Of a DNA stretch of 50,562 nt, positions 40,107 to 43,349 are shown in pieces (position 1 is the stretch's first letter; each line of letters starts with the position of its first letter). Under the pieces are notes generated by a model. The model did no database searches. It saw only the letters and a list, made by a program, of their open reading frames with translations, and was not told the DNA's origin. The stretch spans positions 1 to 50,562 of the forward strand of contig JAFDAJ010000019.1 of the NCBI GenBank assembly GCA_019313915.1, read 5' to 3'. The position numbers and the translations under genes are program-made. The stretch comes from Deltaproteobacteria bacterium (GTDB lineage: Bacteria; Myxococcota_A; Polyangia; Polyangiales; Houyiibacteriaceae).

Positions 40107-40352
40107 ATGAACTCAGCACTCAAGCACACGATCATCGCGATGGCGACCGCGGCACTCAGCATGACCGCCGCATGCAAGTCGGACGATGGTCCGGAAGCCA
40201 GCGAAGCGACGACCGGAGCCGAGACTGCAGCGGCCGCCGAAGAAGGCGCAGCAGAAGCCTCCTGTGGCGAGGGCAGCTGTGGCGAAGCCGCGAAGGAAGG
40301 CGACGCATCGGAAGCTTCTTGCGGTGAAGGCAGCTGCGGCGGCGCCAAGTAA
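40107..40352 (+). CDS. HvfA/bufferin-like RiPP precursor with lipoprotein signal
   Basis: An 81-residue peptide. Residues 1-22 form a signal with lipobox TAAC (Cys23), followed by an Ala/Glu/Gly-rich linker and two identical copies of EASCGEGSCG (50-59 and 69-78), placing Cys at 53, 58, 72 and 77. EGSCG closely resembles the EGKCG motif of HvfA-family precursors, whose Cys are modified by the DUF692 enzyme encoded next to them. AGAGGAAAG upstream is a strong ribosome-binding site. Known precursors have an ordinary signal peptide; a lipobox would tether the product to a membrane. The core function, probably copper or other metal binding, is inferred from the family. Confidence 0.85.
   Translation: MNSALKHTIIAMATAALSMTAACKSDDGPEASEATTGAETAAAAEEGAAEASCGEGSCGEAAKEGDASEASCGEGSCGGAK
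40254..40340 (+). repeat. Duplicated Cys-motif repeat in the RiPP precursor
   Basis: Two 30-base copies (40254-40283 and 40311-40340) encode the same ten residues. They differ at six bases, all third codon positions and all synonymous, so the peptide repeat has been kept while the DNA drifted. Confidence 0.9.
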
Positions 40353-40394
40353 TCCACAAAGGTCACGCTGCTCGCGACCGGGCAGCAAGGTGTT

Positions 40395-40438
40395 AGAAGC
40401 CGCGGCGGCGGATGTCGCCGCGGCTTCTTGTTTTGTGA
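40395..40438 (+). terminator. Strong hairpin/attenuator between precursor and modifying enzyme
   Basis: AGAAGCCGCGGCG (40395-40407) pairs perfectly with CGCCGCGGCTTCT (40416-40428) over an eight-base loop and is followed by TGTTTTGTG. It lies between the precursor stop and the DUF692 start at 40447, so most transcripts would end after the precursor, with some read-through to the enzymes. Confidence 0.75.
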
Positions 40439-40446
40439 GAGAGTAA

Positions 40447-41289
40447 ATGACTCGAGACGTCGCCGGAATCGGCCTGGGGCTTCGATACGACCTTGCGACG
40501 GAGCTCCTCGAACGGACTCCGAAGAACATCGCGTGGTTGGAGATCCATCCGGAAAACTACATCGACCGCGGTGGTCGCTATCAAGAGATGCTGGACCTAG
40601 CCCGAGAAGACTGGCCGGTCATCACGCACGGTTTGAGCTCTTGCCTAGGCGCACTCGAACCCTTCGACGCGAGCTACCTGAAAGAGCTCGGAACCTTCTT
40701 GAGAGATCTCGAAATCCCGTGGCACAGCGAGCACCTCTGTCTAGGCGGAGTCGATGATCGCTTCTTCCACGACTTGCTCCCGCTCCCGTTCACGGAGGAG
40801 GCGGCGGCGATCGCGTCACAGCGATTGATCGAGATGCGCGACGCGATCGGAGTGCCGCTCGCGCTCGAGAACGCGAGTTACTACGCGCCGCAAGGCCCGG
40901 ACGGCCTGGCGGAAGCCGACTTCGTGGTAGAGGTCCTCGAGAAGGCGGATGCGAAGCTGCTTCTAGACGTCAACAACATCTATGTAAACGGCCGCAACTT
41001 CGACTTCGACCCCAAGTTGTATATCGACAAGATCCCGATGGAGCGCGTGGTGCAAATCCACGTCGCCGGCCACTTCGTCCGCGACGACGGGCTGCGCATC
41101 GACACACATGGCGAGCCGGTGCCCGACGACGTGTACGAGCTGCTCGACTACACGTTGCGCAAGACAGGCCCCGTCCCGGTGCTTCTCGAACGCGACAATA
41201 ATGTTCCGCCACTCGACGAGCTCCTCTCCGAGATCGATGAGCTCTGGACGATTTATCGGAACGCAACGGGGGTTGGCGATGCTCGCTGA
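40447..41289 (+). CDS. DUF692 multinuclear non-heme iron enzyme (MNIO), HvfB/BufB-like
   Basis: A 280-residue TIM-barrel enzyme of the DUF692 family, which uses two or three iron ions and oxygen to modify Cys in precursor peptides. Candidate metal ligands and family motifs in order are IHPENY (34-39), THG (His61), HSEHLC (93-98), LENASYY (Glu141, Asn142), DVNNIYVN (174-181), IHVAGH (His205, His209), DTHG (Asp219, His221) and LLERDNN (Glu249). All expected positions are filled, so it should be active. It follows the precursor after a hairpin and overlaps the partner gene by 11 bases. The exact modification (oxazolone/thioamide or thiooxazole) cannot be decided from sequence. Confidence 0.93.
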   Translation: MTRDVAGIGLGLRYDLATELLERTPKNIAWLEIHPENYIDRGGRYQEMLDLAREDWPVITHGLSSCLGALEPFDASYLKELGTFLRDLEIPWHSEHLCLGGVDDRFFHDLLPLPFTEEAAAIASQRLIEMRDAIGVPLALENASYYAPQGPDGLAEADFVVEVLEKADAKLLLDVNNIYVNGRNFDFDPKLYIDKIPMERVVQIHVAGHFVRDDGLRIDTHGEPVPDDVYELLDYTLRKTGPVPVLLERDNNVPPLDELLSEIDELWTIYRNATGVGDAR

Positions 41290-42016
41290 CCATGCCAAAG
41301 CCATCCACCGTGTCTGCTTCGGTTCGGAGCCGAGCGAAGCCGACCTCGAGCTGCTCGGGTCGCGCGAACGCTGGCTGGTCTATAGGGACCTCGTGCGTAA
41401 CCGCCTCAACCATGTGATCGGCGTCGCCCTGGCCCGCACCAAGAACGCAATTGGGGAAGAGGTGTTCCAGAGGGCCGTCGACGAATGGTTCAGCACGGGC
41501 GGCCCCACCACTCGATACCTACGATACGTGCCGAGTGAGCTCGCGGAGTTTGCCATTCCGATCTGGCAACGCACCGAAGCCCCGTGGGTCGCTGACCTCG
41601 CGGGCTACGAGATCACCGCATGGGAGATCCGCTACGGGCCCCCAAACCCTACGCCGTCCCACGAGTTCGCCTTCGACCGCAGGCCGGTCCTCGCCACGGC
41701 CGTGAAAGTTCTCCGCCTCGCGTATCCGGTCCACAACGAACCCGCGCCCGGCGCAGGTTACGAACCGGACCCCACGATTCTCTGCCTCTACCGCGACAAG
41801 AACCACAAGGCGATCCCGCGCAAGCTCAACCCCCTCGCTGCAGACCTCCTCGACGCCTGGCGCGCAGGCGATCAAACCGTCGCAGAGTCCGTGCAACAAG
41901 TCGCGGCCGCCCACAAGACCCAAATCGGCCCGGACTTCATCGAAAAACTCTCCACCCTAATCGCCGACTTCCTCAACCGCGGCATCCTCTTGGGGGGACA
42001 GGATCCCCCTCCGTAA
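41279..42016 (+). CDS. DUF2063-type RiPP partner protein, HvfC/BufC-like
   Basis: A 245-residue protein that matches the partner of DUF692 enzymes, thought to bind and present the precursor peptide. The N-terminal part (about 1-95) is the helical DUF2063 domain, beginning MLADHAKAIHRVCFG, with WLVYRDLVRNRLNHV; the C-terminal half contains YEITAWEIRYGPPNP and LCLYRDKNHKAIPRKLNPLAADLLDAW. The start at ATG 41279 overlaps the DUF692 gene by 11 bases. The last residues, GGQDPPP, and the stop codon are encoded by the left arm of a 26-bp inverted repeat, so the C-terminus may have been altered by that element. Confidence 0.85.
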   Translation: MLADHAKAIHRVCFGSEPSEADLELLGSRERWLVYRDLVRNRLNHVIGVALARTKNAIGEEVFQRAVDEWFSTGGPTTRYLRYVPSELAEFAIPIWQRTEAPWVADLAGYEITAWEIRYGPPNPTPSHEFAFDRRPVLATAVKVLRLAYPVHNEPAPGAGYEPDPTILCLYRDKNHKAIPRKLNPLAADLLDAWRAGDQTVAESVQQVAAAHKTQIGPDFIEKLSTLIADFLNRGILLGGQDPPP

Positions 42017-42192
42017 CCCCCCGAAACCAAACAGCCTCTCCGCCGAAGATCACAACGACAGATCACCGAGCCGTCGGTGACCACGGCTGGAGGCCGAAAC
42101 GGCCCCATGCAAGATCGCGGAAAGTAGCCGCTGGGATCTTCCGCTGAGAAGCGGAGTGGTCCCGGTGGGTTACGGAGGGGGATCCTGTCCCC
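41994..42192. repeat. 199-bp element bounded by a perfect 26-bp inverted repeat with four inner hairpins
   Basis: The arms at 41994-42019 and 42167-42192 are exact reverse complements. Between them lie four stem-loops: TCACCGA/TCGGTGA (42063-42080), GGCCG/CGGCC (42092-42104), AAGATCGCGG with CCGC plus GATCTT (42111-42140), and CCGCT/AGCGG on a GAGA loop (42141-42154). The left arm holds the HvfC-like stop codon and the right arm ends in the acyl-CoA dehydrogenase stop. No clear target-site duplication and no T-run were found. It may be a MITE-like insertion, a structured RNA, or a bidirectional 3'-end element. Confidence 0.85.
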
Positions 42193-43349
42193 TAATAGCC
42201 TTCTACTTTGCTTATGATTTCGTTCATTATTTCGCGGGTGCCGCCGCCTATTGGGTAGAGGCGGGCGTCGCGGTAGAGGCGTTCTACGACGTATTCGCGC
42301 ATGTAGCCGTAGCCGCCGTGGATTTGGACGGCCTGATCGCACACGGCTGAGCACGCGTCGGTTGCGGTGTTCTTCGCCATCGCCGCTAGCGCGGGTGTCT
42401 GCTCGCCGGCCAAGTAGCGCGTGACGCACTCCCCGGTGAGCGCACGGGCCGCTGCTATCTGGGTCGCCATGTCGGCCAGCTTGTGACGAATCACTTGGAA
42501 TCCGGCGAGGTTCTTGCCGAAGGCGTGCCGTTCCTTCGCGTACTGCACCGACTCCCGATACGCGAGCTCGGCGATCGCAACACACTGACCGGCGATAAAG
42601 AGCCGCTCGGTCACGAAGTTCATCATGATCATCAAGAAGCCGGCGCCTTCTTGCCCGATGAGATTGCTCGCCGGAACACGGCAGTCCTCGAAGGCGAGCT
42701 CTGCGGTGTCGCTTGCCCACCATCCCGTCTTCTTGAGCTTACTGGAAACGCTGAAGCCAGGCGTGTCGCTCTCGACGACGAGCATGGAAATGCCCGCATG
42801 CCCTTCCCCGCCTGTTCGGACGGCCGCCGTGACGAAGTCGGCACGGCATCCGGAGGTGATGAACGTCTTTGAGCCGTTCACGATGTAGTGATCGCCATCC
42901 CGGACGGCCTTGGTGCGAACGGCAGCGACATCACTGCCGCCGCCCGGTTCAGTGATCCCGAGCGCGCTCACCTTCTCACCTGTCAACGCTGGTTTGACGA
43001 AGCGCTCTTTCTGCTCGTCCGTGCCGAACCTCACGATCGGGGGAATGGCGATGCCGAGGCTCCCCAGCCCGACGAGGGTGCCAACCGATTTCCCGGCGAG
43101 CACCATCTCTTCGGAAGCGCACAGCACGTGAGTCAGATCCCCCCCATTGCCACCAAGCTCCTCCGGGTAGCCGATGCCCAAGAACCCGGCCTTTGCCGCC
43201 GTCTGATAGAGTTCCCGCGGGAACTCGTTGGCCTCTTCCCAAGCATGGGCGTTTGGCGCGATCGCGTGAGCCGCAAACCGCCGAATCTGCTCGCGCAGCG
43301 CGCGGTGCTCGTCGGTCTCGAACAGATAACCCTTTTTCGGAGCTTCCAT
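42192..43349 (-). CDS. Acyl-CoA dehydrogenase, long-chain/isovaleryl-type
   Basis: A 385-residue FAD-dependent acyl-CoA dehydrogenase, introducing the alpha-beta double bond in fatty-acid or branched acyl-CoA breakdown. Domain order is standard: N-terminal helices, the beta domain with ALGITEPGGGSDV (signature 1) and GSKTFITSG, and the C-terminal helices with QVIRHKLADM and QIHGGYGYMREY. The usual YEGT at the C-terminus is GGGT (about 377), as in long-chain and isovaleryl enzymes, where the base is instead a Glu in helix G; Glu248 in FVTERLFIA fits. Substrate is not certain. Its stop lies in the right arm of the inverted repeat. Confidence 0.92.
   Translation of the reverse strand: MEAPKKGYLFETDEHRALREQIRRFAAHAIAPNAHAWEEANEFPRELYQTAAKAGFLGIGYPEELGGNGGDLTHVLCASEEMVLAGKSVGTLVGLGSLGIAIPPIVRFGTDEQKERFVKPALTGEKVSALGITEPGGGSDVAAVRTKAVRDGDHYIVNGSKTFITSGCRADFVTAAVRTGGEGHAGISMLVVESDTPGFSVSSKLKKTGWWASDTAELAFEDCRVPASNLIGQEGAGFLMIMMNFVTERLFIAGQCVAIAELAYRESVQYAKERHAFGKNLAGFQVIRHKLADMATQIAAARALTGECVTRYLAGEQTPALAAMAKNTATDACSAVCDQAVQIHGGYGYMREYVVERLYRDARLYPIGGGTREIMNEIISKVEGY

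Follow-up and report, generated by a model that had tools for sequence, protein, structure and literature searches.

A probable TIRtron-type element between convergent genes, with fixed copies probably retargeted in place across a myxococcotal genome

Introduction

TIRtrons (TIRYTs) and their TIR repeat families were described by Di Nocera et al. (2013; PMC3733652), who give GGGGWSAS as the signature of many TIRYT/TIRtron elements and report the TIRs to be unrelated to GTAG REPs. Most TIRYTs are assigned to TnpAY1 subclass 2.1 of Quentin et al. (2018; PMC6006769). RAYTs coevolve with the REPs that flank them (Nunvar et al. 2010; PMC2817692), and in an 'orthoswitch' (Nunvar et al. 2013; PMC3686654) the original copies decay and new variants multiply; both phenomena are known. 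Di Nocera et al. also list the bacterial MITEs ERIC, NEMIS, RUP, Nezha and others. In the open-access REP/TIR-transposase literature, within the extent of the text accessible, we found no description of in-place retargeting of fixed orthologous copies.

The window analysed here, a stretch of 50,562 nucleotides, contains at 41994–42192 a palindrome that is very probably a non-autonomous TIR element of the TIRtron type. It would belong to a tyrosine transposase (HUH, Y1) of the REP/TIR-associated kind, and its fixed copies have probably been retargeted in place. Hereafter, G000 denotes the window's own genome and C-numbers its contigs. The locus resembles a TIRtron in several respects: long TIRs with the GGGGWSAS motif (here GGGGACAG, which is present at both ends of the palindrome) border a Y1 HUH transposase; in the genome they enclose the tyrosine transposase gene within the interval C443:7963–8758 and also recur as dispersed dimers; and the host is delta-proteobacterial. 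It differs in that no C-terminal HTH was found, the copies are few (about a dozen) and fixed at orthologous loci across the genus, a second conserved inner motif, GATCNCA, lies 54–60 nt inside each end, and the putative recognition bases were switched in place. The element is a member-like TIR repeat of a TIRtron for which one feature of most TIRYTs, the C-terminal HTH, was not found.

With REPIN/RAYT systems (REPtrons) it shares a transposase that is single-copy, inherited vertically and evolves fast; in both, the palindromic non-autonomous partners lie at gene 3' ends, and enzyme and cognate site change jointly. In contrast to them, it has neither a GTAG/GTGG foot nor a short hairpin; the elements are 130–220 bp long, their ends start with GGGACA, and the GT[AG]G foot is absent from the consensus. 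Moreover, old fixed copies were switched here, whereas the orthoswitch model has them decay. Bacterial MITEs are likewise short, without coding capacity, and share inverted ends with an autonomous relative, but the parent in the present case is a Y1 single-strand transposase, no target-site duplication was seen, and the positions are conserved between species.

Structure of the palindrome and its flanking genes

The outer 26 bp of the arms (41994–42019, plus strand; 42167–42192, minus strand) form an exact inverted repeat in the window sequence, as an earlier note on this DNA had stated, and a repeat search extended them to 64-nt arms (41994–42057, plus; 42129–42192, minus), which are 83% complementary and separated by 71 nt. 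The whole non-autonomous element measures 199 bp with its outer G/C, or 197 bp from GGGACA to TGTCCC, and has copies in its own genome and orthologous copies in relatives. The terminal motif GGGACAGGATCC, which comprises positions 1–12 of an arm, lies at 41995–42006 (plus) and 42180–42191 (minus). Its GGA triplet at 42001–42003, matched by the switched triplet at 42183–42185 in the right arm, reads CTC in the sister species G008. The inner motif is GATCACA on the left (42048–42054, plus) and GATCCCA on the right (42132–42138, minus), with GATCCCA in most arms of G000 and GATCGCA in relatives.

The folding energy was −128 kcal/mol versus −80.6 ± 4.8 in shuffled sequences (z −9.9), and the chance expectation of a 27-mer match at the observed level was 0. 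Instead of the four successive hairpins described earlier, the predicted fold is a single long imperfect stem with a branched middle, in which the hairpins are not of equal standing; the middle segment includes a small hairpin, TCACCGA-gccg-TCGGTGA, at 42063–42080 (plus). Neither a T-run, in agreement with the earlier note, nor a terminator-like site was found inside the palindrome. No promoter-like site was found within it either, and an Rfam search with the palindrome matched no family.

The 3' part of a DUF2063/NGO1945_C-type gene (41108–42016, plus) runs into the element, which supplies its TAA stop (42014–42016) at position +19, and a convergent acyl-CoA dehydrogenase gene (42192–43349, minus) has a TAG stop (42192–42194) that abuts the element on the other side. 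The previous claim that the arms include both stop codons holds for the DUF2063 TAA, which lies in the left arm, but not for the dehydrogenase TAG, which overlaps the right arm by a single base. No close homologue of the dehydrogenase, whose gene is next to rpoC in G000, was found in G014 (81% complete, one contig). Upstream of the PF05114 (MbnB/TglH/ChrH-type) and DUF2063 genes (window 40107–41289, plus) there is a Cys-rich ORF of 81 aa in which SCGEGSCG motifs recur, and by their sequences the three look like a bufferin/metallophore-type RiPP operon.

The transposase and the gene-less copies of the source genome

The BLASTN check for other copies that had been suggested for this palindrome returned related palindromes on other contigs of G000, and the element is present in relatives as well; a single copy absent from relatives, which had been named as the outcome that would speak against the earlier reading, is therefore not what is observed. 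Pairs of GGGACAGGATCC ends spaced 130–200 bp apart occur on C85, C155, C156, C205, C213, C27, C209 and C290 and in the window. A further end, at C443:8747–8758, lies ~90 bp from the only Y1_Tnp gene of G000 that scores over the cut-off. As the ends of the palindromes also bracket this gene (C443:8034–8657, 207 aa), the palindromes correspond to the transposase element minus its gene. The transposase element itself (about 798 bp) starts directly at the TAG stop of leuS and is located between leuS and an mglA-type GTPase gene.

Gene-less copies number about a dozen in G000, mostly at gene 3' ends, a lower bound like all counts from the pattern, BLAST and covariance-model searches by which copies were located. 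Their common ends consist of GGGACA-NNN-TC plus the inner GATCNCA motif. They are non-coding, share inverted ends with an autonomous element and are present in several copies, so that the earlier suggestion of a MITE-like mobile element was right and can be made precise as a TIR element of a TIRYT/RAYT transposase. No target-site duplication was noticed; the empty sites of relatives reflect presence or absence of the element, and no recent jump was seen.

The G000 transposase scored 36.6 bits against Pfam Y1_Tnp (cut-off 23) and 49.9 bits against NCBIfam REP_Tyr_transpos (NF047646), which is under the cut-off of 80. The HUH motif, NHVH, and the catalytic Tyr motif, YIDLNP/Y-DLNP, are kept in the protein and its relatives. 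The AlphaFold2 model obtained for the G008 ortholog (mean pLDDT 84.7) had its best PDB fold match in entry 4er8, the structure of TnpAREP, a REP-associated tyrosine transposase, in complex with a REP hairpin. Pfam returned Y1_Tnp only, without a C-terminal HTH (Bac_DnaA_C, HTH_23 or HTH_28), and the protein is 207–218 aa long in G000 and its orthologs, compared with about 238 aa for TnpAY1 subclass 2.1; for these two reasons it was not filed under that subclass. The relatives retrieved by the transposase scan are uncultured Myxococcota.

Among its orthologs, the G000 protein is a long-branch outlier and the most diverged one (55–63% identity), compared with 84% shared by G008 and G017; its dN/dS is well below 1 where dS is estimable. 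It is without nine residues, KRYxTTGKL, of which GKL is invariant across twelve aligned relatives, and the missing segment is just before the stretch that aligns to the tetranucleotide-contacting residues of E. coli TnpAREP. Plasmid and phage records yielded no transposase relative above 60% identity, and a recent phage or plasmid origin was rejected on these grounds. Horizontal replacement of the G000 transposase appears disfavoured, if still conceivable, given that its closest relative in 317 genomes of the class is 63% identical.

Distribution and inheritance across the genus

A covariance model built from 21 copies was used to search 19 genus genomes and found copies in all 19, so that a single-copy oddity was rejected. 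The first pattern search had taken the end motif of G000 itself as query; the later model covered three end types (CTCTCC, CGCTCC and GGATCC), which limits ascertainment bias. As palindromes score on both strands and are counted twice, the figures to be compared are 29–44 matches in the eight genomes with a leuS-linked transposase, 34 in G002 (80% complete; leuS region not found), and 2–16 in the remaining ones. Copy number follows the presence of the leuS-linked transposase across the 19 genomes, and without the transposase the copies are few and decayed: the terminal 12-mers of the arms carry on average 2.4 differences in nine examples from transposase-less genomes versus 0.1–0.45 in genomes with the enzyme.

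At the window locus, the element is complete in G000, G003, G005, G008 and G017; G001, G006, G009, G012 and possibly G011 have half of it or a remnant, and the site is empty in G004, G007, G013, G015, G016 and G018. Eight genomes carry the transposase in the leuS–mglA gap and two carry remnants there; another TIR family sits in the gap in two genomes, and three have nothing in it. The transposase is enclosed by family-type ends in six relatives, and in G014 only the left end was seen. The reading frame of the mglA-type GTPase gene of G015 (L259, C1:2562905–2563495) is interrupted by a single TAG, which may be an error of the assembly.

Ninety elements with flanks were extracted from the best-scoring matches, among which degenerate copies are under-represented, and 85 of them fell into 16 locus clusters common to at least two species when grouped by flanking protein similarity. 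The identity of arm interiors was 0.687 for the same locus in different genomes, 0.560 for different loci of the same genome, and 0.552 for neither; shuffling the locus labels within genomes gave 0.563 ± 0.005 and reached 0.687 in none of 1000 trials. Because the interiors track the locus, the copies were inherited in place. Lengths agree within 2 bp in 39% of ortholog pairs versus 12–14%, and interior closeness follows the species tree, with the highest value for G000 obtained with G008 (0.732). Gene ends flank the copies on both sides in 49/90 cases and on one side in 39/90, stop codons peak at positions −3 and +19 of the elements, and TAG is found at 42% of element ends versus 1.8% in the background.

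At the C169 locus (L043; orthologs L131, L132, L305, L307 and L133), a decayed element is kept in five transposase-less genomes, and its ends stay CGCTC where other loci read CTCTC. This element may represent the oldest of the copies, or it may serve a different role.

Switch of terminal and inner bases in G000

Identity of the hexamer that follows GGGACA was 0.923 within the same genome, 0.843 at the same locus and 0.828 for neither, and the corresponding values for the end hexamer of G000 were 0.769 (own genome), 0.568 (same locus) and 0.550 (unrelated). In ortholog pairs that include G000, identity at positions 7, 8 and 9 is 0.17, 0.21 and 0.29, respectively, versus 0.97–1.00 among the other species, and at position 58 it is 0.17 versus 0.98; weaker drops are found at 61–62, and other strongly conserved positions are unchanged. 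Most G000 arms have changed from CTC to GGA at positions 7–9 and from G to C at position 58, and only these four positions switched throughout. GGA is present in 16 of the 22 G000 arms, and three more begin with GG. The sister species of G000, G008 (support 99.8/100), reads CTC and GATCGCA. Positions 13–57, between the switched patches, show an identity of 0.658 at the same locus versus 0.540 within the own genome, with C169 as an example. Exceptions in G000 are the copy on C446, which is unswitched and could reside on a contaminant contig, and one lagging arm of C169. A second, different state is found in G003, in which the transposase ends (L091, C81) read GGTTCC/GGATCC and the dispersed copies mostly CGCTCC; the match between the two is imperfect, and this genome departs from a simple rule.

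Alternative explanations

The terminal and inner motifs might have spread from a master copy by transposase-mediated strand exchange or gene conversion, with no selection involved, a reading we regard as decidedly improbable. Several G000 copies are in the same GGATCC/GATCCCA state and lagging arms show intermediates such as GGCTCC, both as expected from it, but a conversion tract would overwrite positions 13–57, which stay locus-specific; whole-arm conversion was rejected for this reason. That the gaps are insertion hot spots colonised independently by each species, so that shared loci do not denote inheritance, is very hard to credit. The second TIR family in the leuS–mglA gap of G010 and G015 and the enrichment of TAG at element ends are in its favour; however, interiors and lengths are locus-specific across species and their closeness tracks the species tree, and for the first family independent colonisation is already contradicted.

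A role chiefly as a bidirectional terminator or mRNA 3'-end stabiliser for convergent genes, with the transposase link being historical, is unlikely. It would account for the gene ends on either side, the stop-codon peaks and the very stable stem, and REPs are known at gene 3' ends (PMC3733652). It conflicts with the missing T-run, the interior stems that are not maintained and the loss or decay of copies in transposase-less genomes, and it offers no reason for a genome-wide switch of three terminal bases. An intrinsic terminator in particular was rejected, as the G+C-rich stem is without a following T-run. We give next to no credence to a conserved structured non-coding RNA, which had also been proposed for this palindrome and has the folding z-score on its side: Rfam gave no match, there is no promoter-like site, and the covariation check of the stems revealed that arm positions 13–52 pair no better among orthologs than with shuffled partners (0.634 vs 0.633), which led to its rejection. 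The recombination or cruciform site that the earlier note also named may have a counterpart in the system, as it resembles in kind the processing of single strands by HUH transposases.

Proposed origin and retargeting of the element

For the non-autonomous TIR element, probably retargeted in place, we propose that gene-less elements entered gaps just behind stop codons before many species of the genus diverged, and that they would thereafter have been inherited locus by locus. Positions 7–9 and 58 are putative recognition bases, judging by the concerted change of four positions per arm, which the transposase may recognise on single-stranded DNA, as do TnpAREP and IS608. The sites would then have changed in place because they were selected to remain recognisable, and not through re-transposition or gene conversion. 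Both of these are unlikely given that the sequence between the switched patches is still specific to the locus, which leaves as the remaining option a point change per site under such selection. This pattern, as read from sequence, suggests a benefit of recognition for the host, without which in-place retargeting is hard to explain; the likeliest reason, and a plausible one, would be that the host profits at gene 3' ends from the interaction of the transposase with its sites. The RNA form of the element is probably not the selected object, since the interiors show no maintained pairing.

Whether the transposase and the fixed palindromes constitute a domesticated, host-selected system, in which a specificity change in the G000 lineage led selection to rewrite positions 7–9 and 58 on both arms of nearly every copy, we consider evenly balanced. 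If so, they would behave like a regulator with its binding sites and not like a mobile element with its copies. This touches on an open puzzle, the retention over millions of years of single-copy REP-type transposases that are not seen to jump. A slow selfish replicator would be expected to add copies at new sites, whereas under a host function the old sites themselves should be retargeted where they are. The present data show the latter, in that the copies are old, fixed and alignable, yet the recognition bases moved with the enzyme. The data thereby single out four bases in each arm, and one segment of the protein, as targets for direct binding comparison.

Other transposase lineages

A second transposase lineage (G011 and G013) has ends GGGACACGCTA and inner motif CCGCGAAAAC, and the CCGCGAAAAC inner motif is also seen in palindromes of G010 and G015. 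In G025, which belongs to another genus, transposase and palindromes share GGGACAGGATCA and CGAAATGCAT. By inspection, and unscored, each transposase lineage appears to have its own terminal and inner motif. A second TIR family (L098, L099, L135 and L303, in G013, G011 and G015) was recorded with ends GGGACACGCT and inner motif ACCGCGAAAAC; it has a transposase lineage of its own and, in G010 and G015, fills the leuS–mglA gap, where other species hold the first transposase.
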